Virus record (IMG/VR): IMGVR_UViG_3300035170_000032
Location: 1 to 49,037 of that record
Source: a virus
Length of the DNA: 49,037 nucleotides
Reading direction: 5' to 3' (one strand)
Shown here: positions 3,336-47,467 of the stretch, one piece after another
Numbering within the stretch: position 1 is the first letter of the stretch
Layout: each line of letters starts with the position of its first letter
The notes under the pieces: generated by a model
What the model was told of the DNA's origin: nothing
Databases searched by the model: none
What the model saw: the letters and a program-made list of their open reading frames with translations, nothing else
Made by a program: the position numbers and the translations under genes

Positions 3336-3545
3336 TCAAATAACCGTAGAATTGTCTGGTAAATCAAAAAAATCATTAGGTTGCACTAATCCATTAGTAA
3401 CAATGAAAATTTTCACCATAATATTGGGTGAAGGAATCCTAAGACGTTTTATATAACGCCTGATAGTGGGCTGACTTACGCCTATATCATTCGCAAACGA
3501 TTCTACGGTTATTTTTTGTTTTTTAATGTAATCATATAATCTCAT
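3336..3545 (-). CDS. Cro-like helix-turn-helix repressor
   Basis: It encodes 69 aa. Residues ~13-35 (VESFANDIGVSQPTIRRYIK) are a clear HTH. It is the first gene of the leftward operon and diverges from the CI-like gene, the usual Cro position. Its -10 box (3557-3552) puts the transcript start at about 3545, the A of the ATG, so the message may be leaderless. The recognition helix differs from the CI-like protein, but both probably act on the TACC-N5-GGTA sites. Confidence 0.8.
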   Translation of the reverse strand: MRLYDYIKKQKITVESFANDIGVSQPTIRRYIKRLRIPSPNIMVKIFIVTNGLVQPNDFFDLPDNSTVI

Positions 3546-3551
3546 GGTTTA

Positions 3552-3579
3552 ACAATACCACTATGGTACACGGTGTCAA
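3552..3579 (-). promoter_or_regulatory. Leftward early promoter
   Basis: TTGACA (3579-3574), a 16-bp spacer and TATTGT (3557-3552) on the minus strand drive the operon from 3545 to 153. An operator palindrome (3556-3568) covers the spacer and -10, so the repressor should block polymerase. The -35 and spacer are the same as those of the rightward promoter because both lie in the 45-bp repeat. Confidence 0.8.
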
Positions 3580-3599
3580 CAATAAAATACCGTTTTGGT
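3555..3599. repeat. Left arm of 45-bp inverted repeat flanking the repressor
   Basis: 3555-3599 is the exact reverse complement of 4105-4149. It carries two operator sites and the -35/spacer of the leftward promoter. The match stops abruptly at both ends, as in a recent duplication or gene conversion. Confidence 0.95.
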
Positions 3600-3627
3600 T
3601 AATTTACATAAGAGTTCCAAAACGGTA
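3556..3627. promoter_or_regulatory. Left operator cluster (three TACC-N5-GGTA sites)
   Basis: Three 13-bp partial palindromes: TACCACTATGGTA (3556-3568), TACCGTTTTGGTT (3588-3600) and TTCCAAAACGGTA (3615-3627). Sites 2 and 3 face each other as 12-bp inverted arms 18 bp apart. Site 1 covers the leftward promoter and site 3 covers the -10 of the predicted repressor promoter, which suggests autoregulation. Confidence 0.8.
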
Positions 3628-3631
3628 TGTT
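3603..3631 (+). promoter_or_regulatory. Predicted repressor-maintenance promoter
   Basis: TTTACA (3603-3608), 17 bp, then TATGTT (3626-3631). The transcript start would fall at about 3638, the A of the repressor ATG. That gives a leaderless message, as for lambda cI from PRM. An operator half overlaps the -10. The weaker -10 fits a regulated promoter. Confidence 0.55.
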
Positions 3632-3637
3632 TATTTT

Positions 3638-4045
3638 ATGTTAAAAAACAAAATTAGAGATGTTAGAAAGCAATGCGGCCTTACTATTCAACAACTCGCT
3701 GATAAGGCTAAAACGTCGCATGCTCAAATAGTACGTTTAGAAAAGGGGGATCGGCGATTAACTGTCGAATGGATAGATCGCATTGCAACAGCATTGCAAT
3801 GTGATCCCATGGAATTGATAGTATCAAATAACACTCAACATAATGATTCTATTATTGATCAAAACATATTATCTAATACCATATGCGCGGTAGAGGACTG
3901 GATAATTTTAAATGCAATATCTATAACTTCTCATCAAAAATCTAAAGCTATTTGTTCGCTTTATACGCACATTATGAATAATTCTGTCTCCACTCCCTCG
4001 GCACAAGAAATAAAATTAGTCATAAACACCATCTTAAGCCAATAA
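3638..4045 (+). CDS. CI-like prophage repressor (XRE family)
   Basis: It encodes 135 aa. Residues 1-65 are an HTH_3 domain (IRDVRKQCGLTIQQLADKAK, then TSHAQIVRLEKGDRRLTVEW). The C-terminal ~60 aa are helical and not a LexA-type peptidase, so RecA-stimulated self-cleavage is not expected. An upstream ATG at 3563 would start inside an operator and read unlike this family, so 3638 is preferred. It is flanked by five operators and divergent promoters, the hallmark of an immunity switch. Confidence 0.8.
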   Translation: MLKNKIRDVRKQCGLTIQQLADKAKTSHAQIVRLEKGDRRLTVEWIDRIATALQCDPMELIVSNNTQHNDSIIDQNILSNTICAVEDWIILNAISITSHQKSKAICSLYTHIMNNSVSTPSAQEIKLVINTILSQ

Positions 4046-4978: not shown

Positions 4979-5333
4979 AAAAGAGTTTTACAAAGCATTA
5001 GGCGAAAGGTTGTACTATTCTAGGATACACTGCGGATTATCTTCACAAGACATGGGGAAAATACTCAATGTATCCCATCAGCAGGTGCAAAAATATACTA
5101 AAGGAACAGATCGTATATCATTATACAGGGTTAATTTATGGGCGATTGCCACTAAAACGCATATCGAGGATTTGCTTGGAATTCTTAAAGATGATGAAGA
5201 TGCTTTTTATTTAAACCCTGTCACTCGAATCGATATGGAATTTGCAAAAACCTTTAAGGATTTGTCCAAGCCGATTGCAACAAAAATTATCAGCCTCATG
5301 AGGGAAATAGGGAAGGATAGAAATGCTCAATAA
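4965..5333 (+). CDS. XRE-family transcriptional regulator
   Basis: It encodes 122 aa from ATG 4965 (AAGAGGA 9 nt upstream), preferred over 4923. Residues ~8-70 form an HTH_3 domain of the type common in alphaproteobacterial genomes and phages (LSSQDMGKILNVSHQQVQKY followed by TKGTDRIS). The C-terminal ~50 aa are helical. It starts inside the RHH gene and ends inside the exonuclease gene, so the three are likely translated together. Confidence 0.8.
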   Translation: MTPTEKEFYKALGERLYYSRIHCGLSSQDMGKILNVSHQQVQKYTKGTDRISLYRVNLWAIATKTHIEDLLGILKDDEDAFYLNPVTRIDMEFAKTFKDLSKPIATKIISLMREIGKDRNAQ

Positions 5334-6252
5334 ACAGCCTGTAGGAACAGCGCCGGGGATTTATTATGATATGTCCGACGAGGAATATCATGCTGACCCA
5401 TCCTTAAGCAGCAGCGGAATAAAAAAGCTCTTACCCGCCGAGGAAGGTGACAAACCAAATCCCTTAGAATATTGGGAGGAATCGGTTTTAAACCCAAATC
5501 GAGAGCCGCTAGACACGGCCGCATTACGTTATGGACGCGCCTACCATACGCTTGTGCTTCAGCCCCAAATTTTTAGCAATCAATTTATCGTATTACCTCC
5601 CGTCAATGATATAAAAATTGATTCTGAGGCATGGGCTGAATTGAGGGATGGTGAAGATGGTAAAGATTTTATCCTTCTTGAATCAAAAACGGCAAAAGTT
5701 GTGAAATATGGTGGTAAAAAAATTGTTATTTCACAAAGCGATTATGCCGATATGTGCACAATGCGTGATGTTTTATTCAGATCGCCGCAAATATCAACAC
5801 TGCTGAATGAAAGCGACAAAGAAGTTGCGATTTTCTGGCGTGATGAAGAAACCGGAATCATGTGCCGGGTGAAGTTTGACTTATTACATCCTCAATTTAT
5901 CACCGATTTGAAAACTATTGCTTCCAGTACCTCATCGAAACGCAAACTGCGCTATGAGTGCTTGGATAGAAAATACCCGGTTTCTGCTGCTATGTACCTC
6001 GAAGGATTAAGAGTGGCGTGCGAAAATGGGTGGATTACTGAAAATAGTCATTCCCAGTTTGCCTTATTGTTTCAGGGTAAAAATAAGCCTCATACCCCAC
6101 GTTTGGTAGTTATCAATGATAACCACATAATAAAAGGTCATGATTATTTTAGGCTTGGACTGGAAATTTACCAGGAAAATTTAGAAAAATACGGCACTGA
6201 TCGTTGGTCGGATGACCAATGTCATGCCGAATATTTATTTGATGAAATTTAA
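5323..6252 (+). CDS. RecE/ExoVIII-like PD-(D/E)XK exonuclease
   Basis: It encodes 309 aa. The order matches PDDEXK-type exodeoxyribonuclease VIII proteins: an N-terminal YYDMSDEEYHADPSLSSSGI, then YGRAYHTLVLQP, then the catalytic core EVAIFWRDE...CRVKFDLL...ITDLKT (Asp, then Asp-x-Lys). Such enzymes resect dsDNA 5' ends to leave 3' ssDNA for the partner annealing protein, here the next gene. Recombination may circularise or concatenate phage DNA. Confidence 0.85.
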   Translation: MLNKQPVGTAPGIYYDMSDEEYHADPSLSSSGIKKLLPAEEGDKPNPLEYWEESVLNPNREPLDTAALRYGRAYHTLVLQPQIFSNQFIVLPPVNDIKIDSEAWAELRDGEDGKDFILLESKTAKVVKYGGKKIVISQSDYADMCTMRDVLFRSPQISTLLNESDKEVAIFWRDEETGIMCRVKFDLLHPQFITDLKTIASSTSSKRKLRYECLDRKYPVSAAMYLEGLRVACENGWITENSHSQFALLFQGKNKPHTPRLVVINDNHIIKGHDYFRLGLEIYQENLEKYGTDRWSDDQCHAEYLFDEI

Positions 6253-11723: not shown

Positions 11724-12518
11724 ATTCTTAAAGTTTTAGATTTATTCAGCGGTATTGGTGGGTTTTCTCTCGGCCTTGAACGTGCCGGCATGAAAACGGT
11801 TGCTTTCTGCGAGATTGAGAAGTTTCCACAGGCAGTGCTGCATAAGCATTGGCCTGATGTGCCGATTTATGATGATGTTTGCCAACTGACAGCAGAAAAA
11901 TTAAGGAGTGATGGAATTGGAACAATTGACGTTATTTGCGGCGGATTCCCATGCCAAGATATTTCCGTTGCAGGAAAAAGAAAAGGTCTTGCAGGGAGAA
12001 GAAGTGGATTATGGAAAGAATACGTTAGAATTATTAACGATATTAGACCCCACTACGTTATTGTGGAAAACGTCACAGGTTTGTTATCAGGAGCAAGGGG
12101 GGCTTGGTTTGGAGAATTTCTCACGGACCTGGCCCAAATCGGGTATGATGCAGAATGGGAATGTATATCGGCGCAACAGGTTGGAGCTCCACACCAAAGA
12201 CAGAGGGCTTGGATTATTGCTTACCCCAGTAAGGTCAGACGGAATAATGGCATATTTAATTACATCAAATATGAAATTCCGGCTTACAAAGAATGGAACA
12301 TATCGCAAAATATCAAATCAGGGAAAGGATGGAAACATTGGCTTATTGAGGTTTGTAAAAATTGTGACTGGTTTGTATCCAAAAGCGACTTTTGTGGAAT
12401 GGATGATGGGTTATCCAAAGAATTGGACGCTATTGCAACTTTAGGGAATGCCGTCGTGCCGCAAATCCCGGAAATCATCGGACGCGCAATAATGAATAGT
12501 TATGAAAATCGAAAATAG
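11724..12518 (+). CDS. Cytosine-C5 DNA methyltransferase, ATT start
   Basis: It encodes 264 aa. Motif I DLFSGIGG (residues 6-13) lies before the first ATG (11790). The frame is closed at TAA 11703, and the only usable start is ATT 11724, with AGAGGA 9 nt upstream. Other motifs: CGGFPCQD with catalytic Cys about 77, ENV about 115-117, QRQRAW about 160, and LGNAVVPQ near 245. The target-recognition part is short. It would methylate phage DNA against host restriction, or regulate. A second reading frame (11911-12444) is open and family-like throughout. Confidence 0.9.
   Translation: MLKVLDLFSGIGGFSLGLERAGMKTVAFCEIEKFPQAVLHKHWPDVPIYDDVCQLTAEKLRSDGIGTIDVICGGFPCQDISVAGKRKGLAGRRSGLWKEYVRIINDIRPHYVIVENVTGLLSGARGAWFGEFLTDLAQIGYDAEWECISAQQVGAPHQRQRAWIIAYPSKVRRNNGIFNYIKYEIPAYKEWNISQNIKSGKGWKHWLIEVCKNCDWFVSKSDFCGMDDGLSKELDAIATLGNAVVPQIPEIIGRAIMNSYENRK
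11911..12444 (+). CDS. Embedded +1-frame gene within the methyltransferase
   Basis: It encodes 177 aa wholly inside the methyltransferase in the +1 frame. AAGGAG lies 2 nt before ATG 11911 (8 nt before an alternative TTG 11917). The product has FSRTWPKSGMMQNGNVYRR (about 70-88), then a variable part and FVEWMMGYPKNWT at the end. From memory these match a family of unknown-function phage proteins with (E)TWPRSGM-x-RNG-x-A/VYRL and VEWLMGFP-x-GWT motifs, usually found beside dcm-type genes. Both motif blocks arise from conserved methyltransferase codons read +1, which suggests birth by overprinting. Expression is unproven. Confidence 0.6.
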   Translation: MELEQLTLFAADSHAKIFPLQEKEKVLQGEEVDYGKNTLELLTILDPTTLLWKTSQVCYQEQGGLGLENFSRTWPKSGMMQNGNVYRRNRLELHTKDRGLGLLLTPVRSDGIMAYLITSNMKFRLTKNGTYRKISNQGKDGNIGLLRFVKIVTGLYPKATFVEWMMGYPKNWTLLQL

Positions 12519-13368: not shown

Positions 13369-14154
13369 TTATTTTCCATACTGGCGATATGCTAATCCGC
13401 AAAGCAAATCACAATCAATAGGTTTTTCTTTTTCAAAAAATCCAGCATTTGGATCTAACTCATCCAGATAAACCGGAATTGCCTTTCTTCCTTCCTCTTC
13501 TTTTTTATTTAACGCGCGCCCTATCAGACGCTCAAGCTTTGCCATACGATCAAATTGCTCTGGAAAATCTATGCGTATTTTATTCCAATAACCCATTCCT
13601 CCCTTAACACAACCTATGCAATTATTATGACCATACGGAGTACCAGACTTTTGCTGTCTATACATGAAAGGAAGTTCGATTCCAGCATCTTGCAATATCG
13701 CCTTACAATTCTCGCTGGTGAGCATTCCTTCTAGGAGGGGCAATTCCAAATCGATTGATGGATTTTGTTGCCTAAATCGCTCAATACGGTTATTTTCATC
13801 ATATGTATATCCAAAAATCTGTATATCATCTGATCGCTGGAAATTCTTACGTATTTCTTTTTTTAATAAATTTGTACATGGAGCGCCATTTATTCCGGTA
13901 AGAAATTTTTTTCTTTCAAAAACCTCCCATATATTATTGTAATCAGGAGATTTTAATATGATTATTTCGTGATTGAACCATTTTTTACAATCACTTAAGA
14001 AGCGCATATTATCAGGGTGTTCGCTGCCAGTATCACAATAAGCAACAATTATTTCATGATCGTGTTTATATTTTTGAATCGCCATTTTCGCTGCTACGGC
14101 TGATGTTGCACCACAAGAAAACCAACATATAACTCTTTGATTATCGAAACTCAC
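13369..14154 (-). CDS. PAPS-reductase-like ATP-pyrophosphatase
   Basis: It encodes 261 aa. The N-terminus VICWFSCGATSAVAAKMA is a PP-loop (SGG-x-TS type), followed by AYCDTGSEHPDNMRF. The C-terminal half has CIGC about residue 181 and CDLLCG near the end, which could ligate an Fe-S cluster. The family covers CysH, DndC and many phage proteins. The phage members' substrate is not established; sulfur chemistry on nucleic acid or sulfur assimilation are the options. It is the last gene of the leftward block starting at about 17386. Confidence 0.8.
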   Translation of the reverse strand: MSFDNQRVICWFSCGATSAVAAKMAIQKYKHDHEIIVAYCDTGSEHPDNMRFLSDCKKWFNHEIIILKSPDYNNIWEVFERKKFLTGINGAPCTNLLKKEIRKNFQRSDDIQIFGYTYDENNRIERFRQQNPSIDLELPLLEGMLTSENCKAILQDAGIELPFMYRQQKSGTPYGHNNCIGCVKGGMGYWNKIRIDFPEQFDRMAKLERLIGRALNKKEEEGRKAIPVYLDELDPNAGFFEKEKPIDCDLLCGLAYRQYGK

Positions 14155-16736: not shown

Positions 16737-16769
16737 ATTAAATAACAATATAATTATTCAATTAAATAA
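16737..16769. repeat. ATTAAATAA repeats downstream of parA
   Basis: Two exact ATTAAATAA copies (16737-16745 and 16761-16769) with the same orientation, 24 bp apart. The second lies in the last codons of parA. With the upstream copies, they may form part of the centromere or operator. Confidence 0.5.
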
Positions 16770-17386
16770 TCAATAGATTCTTTCATTATTTGATTTATTT
16801 CTTGCGCTGCTTCACCTTGCGGATTTTCATCAAATACACTATTACCTATAGCTGCCGACGATGGATAAATAACACGCTGGTGGGTTCGACCATTGAGAAT
16901 GGGAAGTTCGTAACCACGTAATACATCCACCACATCATTACCTATCTTAGTTCCCTTAATGGCGCGGCTAATAACAAATGCCGCTTTTAACTGTCCGTTT
17001 GTTATAGATATTCGATCCTGTACAAGTTTTACCAGGGCTTCGGTACCCCATATATCATATGCCGAAGGAGTTACCGGTATTAATACGAGATTCGCAGCTT
17101 TCATTGCACTAATAGATAGACTATCGGCTTGTGGGGCACCATCGATAATAACGATATCTCTTTTTCTGATATCCTTTATAACCTTTTCAATAATGGGCTT
17201 ATTTACCGGATGAACATCGATAGGATGATCCTCTTTTGCACTCCACCAATCATAGGAGCTACCTTGTGGATCAGAATCAATCAATAAAACATCCTTTTTT
17301 GAACGATGAAACGCAGAGGCAAGATTAGTAGATATTGTAGTCTTTCCAGAACCACCCTTTTGATTTAATACAGCTATAACATACAT
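16754..17386 (-). CDS. parA: ParA/ParF-type partition ATPase
   Basis: It encodes 210 aa, the short ParF/type Ib size without an N-terminal HTH. Deviant Walker A KGGSGKTT at residues 10-17, LLIDSDPQGS (Walker A'), VIIDGAPQ (Walker B). It would use ATP-dependent gradients on the nucleoid to place replicon copies. With the RHH gene and no integrase in the window, it points to extrachromosomal prophage maintenance. Its start overlaps a TTATTTAAT repeat, suggesting autoregulation. Confidence 0.9.
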   Translation of the reverse strand: MYVIAVLNQKGGSGKTTISTNLASAFHRSKKDVLLIDSDPQGSSYDWWSAKEDHPIDVHPVNKPIIEKVIKDIRKRDIVIIDGAPQADSLSISAMKAANLVLIPVTPSAYDIWGTEALVKLVQDRISITNGQLKAAFVISRAIKGTKIGNDVVDVLRGYELPILNGRTHQRVIYPSSAAIGNSVFDENPQGEAAQEINQIMKESIDYLIE

Positions 17387-17449: not shown

Positions 17450-17478
17450 CATAATAATTATAAATGCAAGAGGAAAAT

Positions 17479-17973
17479 ATGGTCACCACATTCGTAATGG
17501 GAGATACTCACCTAGGGCAAGAAAGTATCCTAACATTCAAACGCAAAGATGGTTCGCCATTGCGGGAATTCAGCAGTATTGAGGAGCATGACGAATATAT
17601 CATCGAGCAATGGAACAAGACCGTGCGCCCACAAGATAAAGTTTATCACTGTGGGGATGTAACCATGCACAGACGATTCTTACCTCTGTGCACACGTCTA
17701 AATGGCCATAAACGGCTTGTAATGGGAAATCACGATGAGCATGGGGTAAAGGAGTATTTAAAGTATTTTGAAGAGCTTTATGGAAGTCGGGTGCTTGATG
17801 GGATTATCATAACTCATATCCCAATACATACCGATTGCGTAGCGCGTTTCAAGGTTAATGTACATGGTCATCTTCATGCCAATGTGATTGACGACCCACG
17901 TTATATCAATGTGAGTTGTGAGCAGGTAGGATATACGCCGGTGAGCTTAGAGGAAATAAGGGCGAGATTGTGA
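17479..17973 (+). CDS. Calcineurin-like metallophosphoesterase
   Basis: It encodes 164 aa from ATG 17479 with AAGAGGA 7 nt upstream. Complete motif set: GDTHLG (about 8-13), CGDV, GNHDEHG, THIPIH and GHLH. The two-metal phosphoesterase fold is clear. Phage members of this small YfcE-like group act on phosphodiesters or dinucleotides in some cases; the substrate here is unknown. It is first in an operon with a GTG-start gene and an acyltransferase. Confidence 0.85.
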   Translation: MVTTFVMGDTHLGQESILTFKRKDGSPLREFSSIEEHDEYIIEQWNKTVRPQDKVYHCGDVTMHRRFLPLCTRLNGHKRLVMGNHDEHGVKEYLKYFEELYGSRVLDGIIITHIPIHTDCVARFKVNVHGHLHANVIDDPRYINVSCEQVGYTPVSLEEIRARL

Positions 17974-18095
17974 AAGAAATAGGGGACAGACAAGAAACTA
18001 TCGAACTGGACAAAATAACGAAAATGTCAGATGAGAAATTAATATTAATGCTGCCTCTGATAATCGAAGCTTACTTAGAAAAATGCGAGCAATGA
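17970..18095 (+). CDS. Small linker protein, GTG start
   Basis: It encodes 41 aa from GTG 17970, which overlaps the previous stop (GTGA), and ends overlapping the acyltransferase ATG. Helical (MSDEKLILMLPLIIEAYLEK). Real by packing, but otherwise uncharacterised. Confidence 0.45.
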   Translation: MKEIGDRQETIELDKITKMSDEKLILMLPLIIEAYLEKCEQ

Positions 18096-19216
18096 AAGAA
18101 ATTGACGGACTAACCGGCCTCCGAGGCTATGCTGCATTATGGATAATGTTGTTTCATTCATTAACCATCATCACACCATTTTACGGCACCGCAAAGAAAT
18201 ACCCATTCACGGGCATTATTGGCGTAGACATGTTTTTCGTACTGTCGGGATTTTTGCTATTTATACCGTTTGCAGATGCCCTAATAGCAGAAATACCTAT
18301 ACCTGATACTAGTATCATGTATTATTTTAAAAAACGCTTCTTGCGCATATTTCCGGCCTATTACGCGCAAATAGCAATTCTTGCAGGGCTTTCATTAGCG
18401 GGGGTTTATGAAGTGCAACCGCCCTCTGTATGGATAGCTCATATTTTCATGGTGCATAATTTTTATTCTGGATGGGCTAAAGCAATAAATGGGGTGTGGT
18501 GGACACTTGCACCGGAGTTTGATTTTTATTTGGTGCTGCCGTTACTGTTCTTGTTAATAAGAAAAAAAGGAATGGATTGGTTCATACTATCAGCCATACA
18601 GCTATCAATAGTTTATAAATTAATCATATTTCCTCATATAACAAACATGGATGATGGGTATAAACAATATATGTTAGGCCAATTACCAGGCAGGATTGAT
18701 CTTTTCGCAATTGGGATGACCGCAGCTTTTATTTATCGCAAATATTACGATCAACTGCGGAATTTTCCTAATGCAGAAAAGATTATGGTTTTGGCGGGGA
18801 TTATTGGAATTGGTGGATTTTACTTGGTGATGACATCATTAGGGCGTGGAGTATATTACGGCGGTCACTGGAGTCTTTACATAGCAGAAACGATTTATGG
18901 GTTAATCGCAGCTATTTTGATATTGGGGATTACTTTGAATGGTGGAATCGGAAAGGCGATATTTTCTAATAGGGTGATGGTTTATTTCGGCACGGTGAGC
19001 TATAGCATTTATCTATGGCATGTGCCTATTTTGCGCATGATCTTTGAAAATAAATCAGTTGTGGCGGCATTGAATGGAGGCTTGAAAGCGGGGATTATAG
19101 TGATGTACGTGGGGATCGTATTTGCGGTATCGCATTTATCCTACAGATGGATTGAAAAGCCGTTTATACGTCTAAGCCATGTAAAGAGCAGCCTCAGCCG
19201 CCCTGCGATGAACTAA
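18092..19216 (+). CDS. Acyltransferase 3 family membrane protein
   Basis: It encodes 374 aa. ATG 18092 overlaps the previous stop. An OafA/YrhL-like integral membrane acyltransferase: GLTGLRGYAALWIMLFHS at the start, GVDMFFVLSGFLL, KKRFLRIFPAYYAQI, then about ten membrane helices and YSIYLWHVPI. These proteins add acetyl groups to surface glycans. In prophages such genes often change the host O-antigen and block superinfection (lysogenic conversion), the likely role here. The 3' end overlaps the endolysin gene on the other strand by 45 bp. Confidence 0.85.
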   Translation: MKEIDGLTGLRGYAALWIMLFHSLTIITPFYGTAKKYPFTGIIGVDMFFVLSGFLLFIPFADALIAEIPIPDTSIMYYFKKRFLRIFPAYYAQIAILAGLSLAGVYEVQPPSVWIAHIFMVHNFYSGWAKAINGVWWTLAPEFDFYLVLPLLFLLIRKKGMDWFILSAIQLSIVYKLIIFPHITNMDDGYKQYMLGQLPGRIDLFAIGMTAAFIYRKYYDQLRNFPNAEKIMVLAGIIGIGGFYLVMTSLGRGVYYGGHWSLYIAETIYGLIAAILILGITLNGGIGKAIFSNRVMVYFGTVSYSIYLWHVPILRMIFENKSVVAALNGGLKAGIIVMYVGIVFAVSHLSYRWIEKPFIRLSHVKSSLSRPAMN

Positions 19217-19600
19217 ACCGGCAACCTTCCTACCACCGGACCAAACATACCGCATAAACTCCATTTTAACGTCATCATCACCGCGATTTATGCGGCTGCG
19301 AAGGGTGGACCGCTGTAAGATTCCGGCACCGAGATTGTAGGTAAATGACAATAAGGCCGCATGTTGATTTTCGTTCAGTTGTCGCTTGATTAGTCTTGCT
19401 ACTGCTGCCGCTGCTACTTGCATATCGGATGCAAGCAAGCTCTCGGCCTCTTGCTGCGTGATCACGGTGAACTCTTCACTGGGCTTTATCAGGTGACCTA
19501 TACCGATTGTGAGAAGTCCTGCACTGTCTTTATATGGGCGCAACAGGCATCCCTCGGCATCACGGATAAAATCTATCGCGATTTGGGGAATTTTGATCAT
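19172..19600 (-). CDS. T4-type lysozyme endolysin (GH24)
   Basis: It encodes 142 aa. The catalytic triad spacing equals that of T4 lysozyme: Glu16, Asp25, Thr31 in DAEGCLLRPYKDSAGLLTIG. ALLSFTYNLGAG and the C-terminal GLVHRRAAEAALY are also typical. No signal peptide or SAR helix, so it needs the holin. It hydrolyses peptidoglycan at lysis. It is separated from the holin by a rightward four-gene island, so its transcription must cross that island or start in the 19601-19712 gap. Confidence 0.95.
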   Translation of the reverse strand: MIKIPQIAIDFIRDAEGCLLRPYKDSAGLLTIGIGHLIKPSEEFTVITQQEAESLLASDMQVAAAAVARLIKRQLNENQHAALLSFTYNLGAGILQRSTLRSRINRGDDDVKMEFMRYVWSGGRKVAGLVHRRAAEAALYMA

Positions 19601-19635
19601 TTTGGATATTTTTTCAAAAATAGTTATTTTATCTA

Positions 19636-19664
19636 TTGACTGTGGTTAAAATAACCACTATACT
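19636..19664 (+). promoter_or_regulatory. Promoter with palindromic operator in its spacer
   Basis: TTGACT (19636-19641), 17-bp spacer, TATACT (19659-19664). The whole spacer is a perfect palindrome, GTGGTTA-AAA-TAACCAC (19642-19658). A repressor bound there would switch the island off. The sequence differs from the TACC-N5-GGTA immunity operators, so another regulator is expected, perhaps the island's own HTH protein. Confidence 0.85.
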
Positions 19665-19712
19665 AACCTCATAAGCAACGACGAACGGGGCTAAATAATA
19701 AGGAGATAAAAA

Positions 19713-19874
19713 ATGTCAAGTTTAGTAACGCAAAAAGATTTAGATGTATGGAATGATTTATTTGGTTATTATATTGATGTAAAAGAGAATGAAAACCGGG
19801 CTATGCGCCGTGCAGAAAATGAAGAAAATCCACCAAAGAAAAGTCCTGATAACATTTTGTATGATATGCAATAA
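19713..19874 (+). CDS. Island gene 1, small acidic protein
   Basis: It encodes 53 aa with AAGGAGA 8 nt before the ATG. Aromatic helix (LDVWNDLFGYYIDV) followed by a charged, Pro-rich tail. No known family. First gene after the operator-promoter. Confidence 0.65.
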   Translation: MSSLVTQKDLDVWNDLFGYYIDVKENENRAMRRAENEENPPKKSPDNILYDMQ

Positions 19875-19890
19875 TAAGGAGATTATACAA

Positions 19891-20172
19891 ATGCGCGATA
19901 TTTTTATAAGTACAAAAGCGTCTGGTAATGATTTGATCGTTAATAAATCATTTTCCATCAATCATAAAGTAGGATGTTCGAGAAATACTTACCTTATTTA
20001 CTATAAAATAGTCAACATACCAGACGATGTTTCTGATGATAATGTTATTTTGAGTTTCAAAAAATGCCCCATTAATCCTTGTCTTGATGAACCAAACAGT
20101 TTTATTTATGAATATGAGGCAATTGATCAAGGATCAAAAACGGGAAAAATTGCGCGTCCATTTACAGCCTAA
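19891..20172 (+). CDS. Island gene 2, hypothetical beta-rich protein
   Basis: It encodes 93 aa from ATG 19891 with AAGGAG 9 nt upstream; an ATG at 19789 would overlap island gene 1 out of frame. Beta-rich and Cys-containing (three Cys). No known family. Anti-host or exclusion factor by context only. Confidence 0.65.
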   Translation: MRDIFISTKASGNDLIVNKSFSINHKVGCSRNTYLIYYKIVNIPDDVSDDNVILSFKKCPINPCLDEPNSFIYEYEAIDQGSKTGKIARPFTA

Positions 20173-20198
20173 CAACAACCCCCAACAAGGATAAAACA

Positions 20199-20441
20199 AT
20201 GAAAACATCATTTTTTGACGGTAACGTATTTGTATTAGAAAATTTTTCTGCTAATTTTGATAAGCCATTAGGTCATTACATGCAATCTTGGGTTCCACCA
20301 AGCAGCGGAAATCTTAATGCGCATGCCCCTTCTGTTGATTTTTATAAATGCGTAAGGCTATCCGATGGAAAGGAATTTGAAGGCACCAGAGATGAATGTG
20401 ATGTATTTTTCAGTAAAGATTTTAATAAAGATGCGGCATGA
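20199..20441 (+). CDS. Island gene 3, hypothetical protein
   Basis: It encodes 80 aa with AAGGA upstream. The C-terminal part YKCVRLSDGKEFEGTRDECD resembles short sequence-specific or regulator-like folds but no family can be named. Its stop overlaps the next ATG. Confidence 0.65.
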   Translation: MKTSFFDGNVFVLENFSANFDKPLGHYMQSWVPPSSGNLNAHAPSVDFYKCVRLSDGKEFEGTRDECDVFFSKDFNKDAA

Positions 20442-20611
20442 CCCCCGAAGAACTCCGCACCATATGTGAACAAAACGGCGGTCAAGCTGCCGTTGCAAGA
20501 TTAATCCCATGCACAAAAGGCCACATGAGTAAAATGTGTTGTGGGATTTTTCCGATTCCAGATAAAACCGCTAACCATATTCGGCTGGTGATTAAATCAC
20601 TTCAGAAATGA
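20438..20611 (+). CDS. Island gene 4, small helix-turn-helix protein
   Basis: It encodes 57 aa (ATGA overlap upstream). GGQAAVARLIPCTKGHMSKM followed by PIPDKTANHIR fits the Cro-like HTH of short phage regulators (QA-x-LAR-x-LG...V-x-R...G-x-PIP). It ends one base before the holin stop. It may repress the island promoter (inference). Confidence 0.6.
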   Translation: MTPEELRTICEQNGGQAAVARLIPCTKGHMSKMCCGIFPIPDKTANHIRLVIKSLQK

Positions 20612-21058
20612 TCATTTTGAACGCCCTTTATTCACCTCACGCTGTCCAAAATAAAATGCGATAACAGCCGCAAATATCGCTTTATCGTCATCCGTCCACA
20701 TGATATCCAGATACTCAAATGATGGGGCATGATCACCGATTAGGCTGTACTGAATGTATTTCACGGCAGCGTACAGAAAAAAGAATGCAAAGGCTAATAC
20801 AGGCCGCACCGTTCCATTAAGCGCATCCACCCATGATATACCAGTTTTATAGGTATTATATAGGGCGGTCATTTGACTAGCGTAGGCCGTCGCACCAACT
20901 TCCTCAGCTTGAACGTCTGCATTGTCTTTGGCAGCTTGCATCTGCAATTGCAAAATAGCCAATTCATGCGATTTGTCGGATTTATCTTGCCACAACTTAA
21001 GCAAAGCAGAGGCAAACGGGGCAAAAAATCCACCAAGGGAAGCGAGGAGCGTGATCAT
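20612..21058 (-). CDS. Three-helix holin (GTA_holin_3TM-like)
   Basis: It encodes 148 aa. N-terminal helix (residues 3-18), a long amphipathic coil (KSHELAILQLQMQAAKDNAD), then VRPVLAFAFFFLYAAVKYI and a third helix ending IFAAVIAFYFGQREV. The order matches the three-helix holin family used for gene-transfer-agent release in alphaproteobacteria. It would open the inner membrane for the endolysin. Confidence 0.8.
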   Translation of the reverse strand: MITLLASLGGFFAPFASALLKLWQDKSDKSHELAILQLQMQAAKDNADVQAEEVGATAYASQMTALYNTYKTGISWVDALNGTVRPVLAFAFFFLYAAVKYIQYSLIGDHAPSFEYLDIMWTDDDKAIFAAVIAFYFGQREVNKGRSK

Positions 21059-21315
21059 TTTTTTCTCATTTCTACATGATTTTTATCAATGGCGATACTT
21101 ACACCGGCCCATGCAACGCCTAGGCCAGCAGTTAAAATAACCAGAATTATAGTAGCAATAACTTTGTTTTGAATGAGTTCACAAATTTCACGGGAGCGTC
21201 TAAGATGTTGAATATCTTTTTGTATAGCGATAGGATTTTCCATATCAAATCCAAGCTTCAGTAGTGTTGATTCTACGGCTATATCAACAATATAGTTAAT
21301 ATCGTGCTCTCCCAT
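21055..21315 (-). CDS. Single-pass membrane protein, lysis accessory candidate
   Basis: It encodes 86 aa. A ~48-residue soluble helical part precedes one membrane helix (ATIILVILTAGLGVAWAGVS) and a short basic end. It overlaps the holin by 4 bases. It may be a second holin or antiholin. A spanin is less likely because the helix is C-terminal and no lipobox is seen. Confidence 0.6.
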   Translation of the reverse strand: MGEHDINYIVDIAVESTLLKLGFDMENPIAIQKDIQHLRRSREICELIQNKVIATIILVILTAGLGVAWAGVSIAIDKNHVEMRKK

Positions 21316-44773: not shown

Positions 44774-46187
44774 TGAGACGGCCTCTTATATCATAGCCAT
44801 CAACAGCACCGGCAGCAGATAAAGCCGTATCAGTTTGCGCTTTTTTCAAGTTGATATCAGCAAGTTCAGCAGCGGTAGGACTATCTACAGGATTCCAGTT
44901 AACCTCAGTAGCGAATGGTTTAATTTTAAATTTCGGTGTCACTTCCGAACGGATAAGCAATAAATGATGACGTTCAACAAGCGGTGATAGATCATGTTCC
45001 TGGATACTTTCTAGTTCCTCATGATAACTGGCCTCTTCAAATTCACCTGTCGCATTAAAGCCTTTTGGTGATGTTCCAAGCAATTTCGTTGCCGGAACTC
45101 CAGCACCGGCAGCCACCAATTGGTATTGCGTCATGATGACTGCATCCAGTTCAGAGAGCGACGTGTCGAATTGAGTTATTTCTTCATCGCCACCAACAAC
45201 TTTAAATCCGAAATTATTTTGTAAATTTGTCCATATTTGAGCCTGAGCAATAAATGCTTCAGGGTTTTCAATAATTTTTGTTGTATCGCATTTCAGTACG
45301 GTAAGCCGCTTGCTCATTGCGAGCATTGGGGCTTCATTGGCGGTGCGCTCGGCTGCGTAGACACGTTCCATAATCATTTGCGGCACCGGAATACCCCCAT
45401 AAAAATAGGTAGGTTTCAAGATATCCGGCAAACTGCCATTACGGAATATGATCAAGTGTGTACGGTGTATCCGCTGTGCATTAATACGCCACCATGTCGG
45501 CTCATAAAAATGCTGCGACGCAGGATTAGCCGTTGCATAAAAATCAAGCTCGGGAGTAACCCATGTTGGATCTATCAAACTGATACCGCGATAACTACCG
45601 GGTCTGATACCATCAGGATTAAACGGCTTTACGTAATAATCGGGATCTGTACTATCGACATGGAATAATGCAATGCGAATGCCAAATACACGACCCTTGG
45701 CAACAAAATCAACACAGTGTTTTTTAATACCATAGTGTTTGTCTCGCTGGCGGATAAAATCTAATATTTCAGGCTCTATCTCGGTGCCATCATTGGATGT
45801 AATTTCGTATCCATTTCGGGTAGCATCCTTTGCGGGCATCGTACAAGCTTTACGAATCAACCAGTTTTGATCAAGCATTGCGCAAGCTTGCCAGCCGATA
45901 AAACCTTGACTCGCATAATATTCAAGCTGAACAGCCGGTATATTATCAATCAAGCCTATTTTTAATGGTATCGGCTGACTAAGCGCATCATCCATGGCAT
46001 ATTTTGAGCCGTCAGGATTGACAGTAACAAAATGGCTTGCATCGCGCTGAAAAGTCTTTCTTAGAATTTCTTGCTGTTTGATTGCTAGTGCTGTTGTAGT
46101 TGAATGTACATTGGATTCTGAATTAAAAAACCCCTTCACCGCTTTTGTGACTACGGTGACTGGTTGTTTTTTAATCCACTCAAACAT
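44676..46187 (-). CDS. Portal protein (DUF1073)
   Basis: It encodes 503 aa. [20 protein letters not shown], then [30 protein letters not shown] and [20 protein letters not shown] are DUF1073 features. It forms the DNA-entry ring. The C-terminal ~70 aa are charged. One-base overlap with the terminase. Confidence 0.9.
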
Positions 46188-47467
46188 TATGAAAAGAATC
46201 CTGTTGGCTTTGTCATTATTTCAGTAAATCCCCATACAAGCGCGTCCATATGGTCGGGGGAATACTTCATCGTTTTTGCGTCGTAATCACACATCTGATC
46301 TTCAAGAACAGGGAAACTTCCTACGTGGTGGCACTTTCCTTGCTCATATAATGCTGAAATTGGCTCTGCTCGTGTGATCTTACCTCGGCTTGCATGTACA
46401 GCTTTGTATGAAACGGTTTTGTCAACCATGCGCAATAGCGTTTCTATCATTTCGCCGCCGTTATTGGCTTCGCCGATAATCCGGTCTGCTTTCCATTGAT
46501 GATAGGCATTCACTGCCACTCGTGCCCATTCCTCGGGTGTTCCTCTCATCGATATGTCATCGAGCACATAACCGTGACCATCCGTACCCGTTGCCACTAC
46601 AATAATTCCGGTTTCGTCGCTATCGGGATTAGAGGTTGTTGCCGGGTCAATTGAAACAACAATACGCCGTAATGTTGGATGGGTTTTTACTCTCAGAGCA
46701 TCAAGTTGTGATCGTTTCCAGAGTGCCCCAGGATTATCATCAAGGATTTCTGCATTAAGCTCTTGTCGGCCTAATCTAGTACCTTCATATTTTGAGATAA
46801 TCTGCTGTAAGAATGCACCGGCAAGATTGCTTTTATTATCGTAAGTGCTTCCTTTGGTGACAAAAGTAGTCTTGCTATAGAGTATTTCTTTGACTAACTT
46901 TGTAGGCTTAGGCGTGGTAGTTATGACCGACTGCGGATTATCACCTAAGCGAAGTCCAAATACCGCTTGGTCATATGCTTCGGGATAACGCCACGCGGCT
47001 AATTCATCCATCCATAGCTTGCAATGCTGCTTTCCACGCAAACGCTCCGGCTCATCCGCTGTAAAAACCAAGCTGCGGGCACCATTAGGCCATTCAATCA
47101 GTTTCTTATGCGCTTTGTAGACTGGTCGCTCGTCTTTTGAACAAATCGCAAGAATACCACTTTCGCCCTCAATCATAATATCGCGGGCATCATCAGTGGT
47201 AGCACCAATGAGGTTAACGTAGGGATAGTATTTTACCCATGTACGTACAGTTTCAGCACCAGTACGAGTTTTACCAAATCCACGACCGGCGAGGATTAGC
47301 CAGTTAATCCATACTCCCGGAGGAATAAATTGATTTGGCCTAGCATGCCATGACCAATCGTATAATAATGCTTCTGCTTCTGCATCGCTTAAAGCATTAA
47401 TTCTCTGAATCTGTTCCTGTGGTGGAAGTGTTCGGAATAAGTCCGCGCAAGAGAACTGATTTTGCAT
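46187..47467 (-). CDS. terL: Terminase large subunit
   Basis: It encodes 426 aa. Walker [13 protein letters not shown] (about 58-69), Walker [11 protein letters not shown], and a nuclease domain with [35 protein letters not shown] and [14 protein letters not shown]. Cuts and pumps DNA. It starts inside the small-subunit gene (71-bp overlap). Confidence 0.95.

Follow-up and report, generated by a model that had tools for sequence, protein, structure and literature searches.

The lysis genes of the virus analysed here are separated by an island of four small genes, which very probably entered the genome as an insertion, i.e., as a moron, and which is best explained as an autorepressed anti-defence moron; this reading, the functional part of which we infer, is given a probability of about 50%. 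The window, meaning the whole stretch of DNA that was analysed, is the 49,037-bp virus record IMGVR_UViG_3300035170_000032. Within it, four rightward ORFs encoding proteins of 53, 93, 80 and 57 aa (OrfA to OrfD) are located between two leftward genes, namely the endolysin gene (phage lysozyme; 19172-19600, minus strand; PF00959, E 3e-36) and a holin-like gene (20612-21058, minus strand; phrog_6637, E 1.5e-24; 3TM-holin-like), for which comparison with GTA_holin_3TM gave an E of 0.004, below the cut-off. The sequence-only reading had described four small rightward genes between leftward holin and endolysin, and the ORF coordinates and strands confirm this arrangement.

All four ORFs are encoded on the plus strand. 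OrfA (19713-19874) is acidic (pI 4.5), and its residues 9-34 are similar to the T7 RecBCD inhibitor gp5.9; OrfB (19891-20172) and OrfC (20199-20441; acidic, pI 4.9) are orphans identified as coding by codon usage; OrfD (20438-20611; basic, pI 9.2), a YdaS/Cro-like HTH candidate, is the presumed autorepressor and overlaps OrfC by 4 bp. Scored on the phage's own codon usage, each of the four is the top-scoring of its six frames (z 1.9-3.4 as compared to shuffles), and the Shine-Dalgarno sequences of OrfA and OrfB are strong (-9.3 kcal/mol), that of OrfC being moderate (-5.2). The coding island has a GC content of 35% as compared to 42% for the window, which places it among the lowest 4% of equal windows. 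Its extent, set by flanking 11-bp direct repeats, is approximately 19594-20619 and thus slightly larger than the range given earlier. Rfam and tRNA searches returned no match, and no terminator was found on the plus strand just after OrfD; an own terminator is usual for morons but not universal. The description of the island as self-contained consequently holds for transcription initiation but not for termination. On the endolysin's other side a second rightward block is located (17464-19216, plus strand), which consists of a phosphoesterase gene (phrog_547, E 1e-49), a small ORF and an O-acetyltransferase gene (phrog_3333, E 3e-49; 18083-19216, O-antigen acetylase-like), the 3' end of the latter overlapping the endolysin 3' end by 45 bp, so that the endolysin has rightward genes on both sides. 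A role of this block in serotype conversion is possible.

Evidence for an insertion comes from the island edges. The 11-bp sequence TGATCATTTTG occurs in exactly two perfect copies in the window, one at each edge: the left copy (19594-19604) holds the minus-strand endolysin start codon and the right copy (20609-20619) holds both the minus-strand holin stop and the plus-strand OrfD stop. A common 11-mer was obtained for random pairs of 40-bp windows in 76 of 200,000 trials, whereby the true chance is somewhat higher, as start or stop codons in a similar sequence context make up both edges. A copy of the flanking repeat with one mismatch, TGATCATTTTT, lies at 21052-21062, which is the ATGA junction between the gene at 21055-21315 and the holin gene, and AAAATGATCA is a sequence common to gene junctions in the holin operon. 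When the island and one repeat copy were removed in silico, the rebuilt empty site GGGCGTTCAAAATGATCAAAATTCCC was obtained; in it, the TGA stop of the holin gene and the ATG start of the endolysin gene merge into a 4-bp ATGA overlap, and both the holin and the endolysin protein are left intact. The same 4-bp overlap between a homologous holin gene and the adjacent lysozyme gene is found in the Vibrio phages PS25B.1, 1.185.O and 1.021.A and in ctah5458, with overlaps of 1 bp in ZCVPP1 and 61 bp in AcaML1. The island is absent from all six relatives, distant ones throughout, in which a homologous holin adjoins the lysozyme; the holin relatives from a Bradyrhizobium phage, C48C1 and Mosig are uninformative here, as they have no annotated lysozyme beside the holin. 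The sequence-only reading had named as a test whether the same gene order is kept as core lysis genes in all relatives; the comparison was carried out, and the order is not kept. Its proposal of a moron cassette is thereby strongly supported, by the empty site rebuilt from the flanking repeats as well as by the direct holin/lysozyme overlap in distant relatives. A segment of roughly 1,015 bp would thus have been inserted at the ATGA where the holin stop overlapped the endolysin start, and the insertion would have left the 11-bp duplication behind. That the change was an insertion and not a loss is suggested by the spread of overlaps among the relatives. The insertion removed the endolysin's Shine-Dalgarno sequence, for which +0.4 kcal/mol is calculated now versus -4.4 in the rebuilt empty site.

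Upstream of OrfA a predicted sigma70-like promoter is found (TTGACT-17-TATACT, 19636-19664, plus strand; 10 of 12 consensus matches). Promoter-like matches in the island region occur at chance density (18 found, 17.3 expected), and since they are no commoner than by chance, the call is supported by position and not by score; what the island offers with respect to a moron's own promoter is a sequence element in the right place. The spacer of this promoter is filled by the presumed operator GTGGTTA-AAA-TAACCAC (GTGGTTAAAATAACCAC, 19642-19658, plus strand), a 7-3-7 inverted repeat with perfect 7-bp arms. The earlier description of a near-consensus promoter whose entire 17-bp spacer is a perfect palindrome therefore stands for the promoter and for the arms and is slightly overstated for the AAA centre. 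Among the 23 sites in the window that score at least 10/12, the island promoter is the only one with a symmetrical spacer, and the chance of such symmetry is, by our own estimate, ~1%. A second operator-like 7-3-7 inverted repeat, ATAGTTA-TTT-TATCTAT (19620-19636, plus strand; one mismatch to RTRGTTANNNTAACYAY), has its centre 22 bp, i.e., about two helical turns, upstream of that of the main one. Its score is reached by 1.2% of shuffled flanks and by 1.7% of other 115-bp stretches, both post hoc figures, and as an operator it is suggestive only. The promoter-operator pattern was not found in viral contigs. The window holds no other exact copy of the operator, hence the latter is not evidently common to the phage's CI/Cro-type module at ~3.3-4.0 kb (3563-4045 and 3336-3545).

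The protein presumed to act on this operator is OrfD. Its top Pfam match is YdaS (PF15943; E 0.014, below the curated cut-off of 30 bits), and the phage sequence closest to it (38.8% identity; E 0.2 when the whole collection was searched) is an ORF of the Pseudomonas phage OQ658365 that carries no annotation. This ORF clearly belongs to the YdaS/P22-Cro regulators (E 4e-19 and 4e-9) and resides in the cro position, divergent from a repressor gene. A two-sequence profile built from OrfD and this ORF finds the Cro structures 3bd1 (E 6e-4) and 1rzs (E 0.01), values to be read with the caveat that half of the profile is a clear YdaS/P22-Cro member. The operator region of the homologue in OQ658365 differs in sequence. 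The single-sequence AlphaFold model of OrfD (pLDDT 70) contains a helix and a hairpin instead of an HTH and had no match in the PDB; single-sequence models being unreliable, it was discounted, yet it is kept as evidence against an HTH fold. PDB matches of OrfD to TALE repeats were rejected as a summed-repeat artefact in which no single stretch passes. OrfD thus gives a weak but consistent match to YdaS/Cro-type HTH proteins and is a likely rather than a proven member of the HTH proteins. It shares with the YdaS and P22-Cro regulators (PF15943, PF14549) the top Pfam match and the cro position of its nearest phage homologue; it differs from them in scoring below the Pfam cut-off and in ending a cargo operon instead of facing a CI gene, and the phage carries a separate CI/Cro module. 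From the architecture and the weak Cro/YdaS match it is plausible that OrfD is the putative repressor acting on the palindrome, and we consider autorepression probable.

For OrfA, a relationship to gp5.9 of phage T7 is suggested by several comparisons with borderline statistics. Searched against PHROG 9014 (phrog_9014, gp5.9-like RecBCD inhibitor), OrfA gave E 0.0039 (E 3.8e-4 within this record), with the qualification that, at E up to 1, phrog_9014 also matched weakly in 9 of the 14 genomes used as controls. In a phmmer search of the PDB, gp5.9 chains were the sole sequence matches (E 0.06 and 0.07), and the local alignment score of OrfA with gp5.9 was 59 versus a maximum of 58 in 10,000 shuffles. 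A profile from eight gp5.9 proteins ranked OrfA first among ~7,100 decoys, but with 12.2 bits only. The shared block is N-terminal (LVT...DVWND..GYID), and it is the same block, residues 4-26, to which the match between T7 gp5.9 and the gp5.9 proteins of Klebsiella and Serratia phages is confined. In the RecBCD-gp5.9 structure, gp5.9 residues D11, D15, D21 and E24 contact arginines or lysines of RecB and RecC (PMC9836394 Table 1); OrfA D11, D15, D22 and E25 align with them, all being acidic, in an alignment with one gap, OrfA having one extra residue between the acidic pairs. The C-terminal contacts of gp5.9 (E36, D38/E39, E45), which belong to the terminal acidic coiled coil with which gp5.9 binds the RecB arm, are lacking in OrfA, and the PP at its positions 40-41 would break a coiled coil; several annotated gp5.9 family members also differ in the C-terminal part. 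In all, OrfA resembles gp5.9 in length (53 versus 52 aa), in acidity and in the N-terminal block, and differs from it in net charge (-4 versus -8), in not keeping the C-terminal coiled coil, in not lying beside an exonuclease gene, and in the type of phage, the statistics being weak. The window does contain an exonuclease VIII gene (5323-6252; phrog_412, E 2.5e-54), and lambda Gam was not detected in the phage; given this combination, a RecBCD inhibitor would fit. The sequence link is borderline, and the odds that OrfA is a true gp5.9-like DNA mimic are put at slightly less than even.

For OrfB and OrfC, searches of Pfam, PHROGs, NCBIfam and PDB sequences gave nothing credible, a tblastn search of phage records (E up to 1) gave no match, and exact peptide patterns gave none in viral contigs. 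A PDB match of OrfC to Symfoil was rejected on the same ground as the TALE repeats, no single stretch passing, and the AlphaFold model of OrfB, computed without homologues, was not usable (pLDDT 37). The statement that three genes have no known relatives accordingly applies to OrfB and OrfC in the collections searched and fails for OrfA, which resembles T7 gp5.9. OrfB and OrfC are probably further small, putative counter-defence proteins.

The layout of the island invites comparison with acr-aca operons. All acr-aca promoters reviewed have an inverted repeat within the predicted core promoter, and some have a similar repeat immediately beyond it; repression is exerted by the cognate Aca (PMC9410906). 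AcaFinder expects genes on the same strand, gaps of <250 bp and proteins of <200 aa, and YdaS is the top Pfam match of 1 of 12 known Acas (PMC9765179). The island agrees with these strand, spacing and size rules and has its inverted repeat within the predicted core promoter. It shares with acr-aca operons the short same-strand genes, a terminal small gene that is an HTH candidate, the inverted repeat inside the core promoter and possibly a second similar repeat, and by this analogy it may work like an acr-aca operon in layout. It differs in its position within the lysis gene pair, in that no credible Acr homologue was found in Pfam, NCBIfam or PDB sequences, and in OrfD, which found no Aca chain among the Aca families with solved structures, its profile reaching Aca2 only at E 0.67. 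The latter two differences are the reason why the island is not classified as acr-aca. With the morons of lambda-like phages it has in common a predicted promoter of its own, low GC and a position between genes that adjoin in relatives; it differs from them in having no terminator that could be found, a probable autorepressor and a flanking 11-bp duplication at an ATGA start/stop overlap.

When 25 kb were compared to phages by megablast, no close relatives were revealed, and scans of viral contigs with the holin, OrfA, OrfB and OrfC found none; the endolysin scan of viral contigs gave one match (30%). Genome-collection scans with MCP and TerL yielded nothing, and a TerL search gave 28 loci having little in common with this genome beyond TerL. 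Beyond these, only a 10.7-kb piece of the virus itself was obtained, which is nearly identical and does not include the island region. Many viral contigs encode a TerL 57-80% identical to that of the window (46187-47467, minus strand) and have little or nothing else in common with it, which suggests that the terminase gene is exchanged among unrelated phages. The capsid is closest to enterobacterial Wifcevirus-type phages (44% identity) and leans towards a proteobacterial host, a match that does not settle the presence of RecBCD. Elsewhere in the window a ParA-like partition protein is encoded (16754-17386, minus strand; phrog_164, E 2e-45) and no integrase was recognised among the proteins scanned; the virus may be a phage-plasmid. 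A cytosine methyltransferase-like gene of 242 aa and a 178-aa ORF, which itself resembles part of a methyltransferase, overlap in different frames (11790-12518 and 11908-12444, plus strand) and may represent a frameshifted gene. A PAPS reductase-like gene (13369-14154, minus strand; phrog_424, E 1e-51) falls into the PHROGs category moron and host takeover.

The mechanism suggested for the autorepressed anti-defence moron assumes that OrfD is absent from a naive cell at the time of DNA entry and that the promoter is free, so that host RNA polymerase would make a burst of OrfA, OrfB and OrfC. OrfD, as product of the last gene, would accumulate and, in dimeric form, occupy the inverted repeat that separates -35 from -10 and probably also the second repeat two helical turns upstream, thereby shutting the promoter. 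This shut-off would limit toxicity and halt rightward antisense transcription into the holin gene before lysis. OrfA would most likely serve as a gp5.9-like acidic DNA mimic that blocks either RecBCD or another DNA-binding defence complex related to it; gp5.9 itself inhibits MukBEF as well, and its expression is toxic (PMC7617805). An exclusion or anti-defence function, as proposed by the sequence-only reading, is favoured as the putative role of the island, the chances for anti-defence cargo as such being evenly balanced. The most specific version, in which a new autorepressed anti-defence locus comprising a gp5.9-like RecBCD/MukBEF-type DNA mimic outside T7-like phages and two unknown counter-defence families entered at an ATGA overlap, is tentative and rather unlikely to hold in full.

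An autorepressed moron could also carry cargo that benefits the lysogen or keeps other phages out (superinfection exclusion or toxin-antitoxin-like) without any counter-defence role, a less likely alternative: its own promoter and a strand opposite to the late genes fit prophage expression, a CI/Cro-type module is present in the window and an O-antigen acetylase-like gene lies next door, and terminal HTH genes are known in toxin-antitoxin operons too, YdaS having been called a toxin (PMC5700373). The gp5.9-like block of OrfA points instead to a DNA mimic, no toxin family match was obtained, and the want of a recognised integrase among the proteins scanned likewise speaks against this alternative. 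A switch of lysis timing, improbable in our estimate, leaves the cargo unexplained, as three of the genes are not regulators. Such a switch would act through antisense transcription into the holin gene and an endolysin uncoupled from the holin and its Shine-Dalgarno sequence, with OrfD relieving the interference; it draws on the missing terminator, on the change in the endolysin ribosome site from -4.4 to +0.4 kcal/mol and on an operator positioned between the island genes and the endolysin, features which may have arisen incidentally from the site of insertion. Least probable is that neutral or decaying passenger genes are at hand, with the gp5.9 similarity and the palindrome arising by chance. 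The orphan status of OrfB and OrfC, the borderline OrfA match and the chance density of promoter matches agree with it, but the four frames are open, coding-like and tightly spaced, OrfA and OrfB have strong ribosome sites, and the spacer symmetry is expected by chance at ~1%.

The island provides three concrete, small counter-defence gene candidates together with a predicted operator. If OrfA is a true relative of gp5.9, RecBCD DNA-mimic inhibitors would not be confined to T7-like phages, and the regulated cassette would show how phages contain a host-toxic protein. Having entered at a start/stop overlap, where the duplication can still be seen, the island clearly illustrates moron entry into tight operons and also shows the cost of such entry to the lysis genes.
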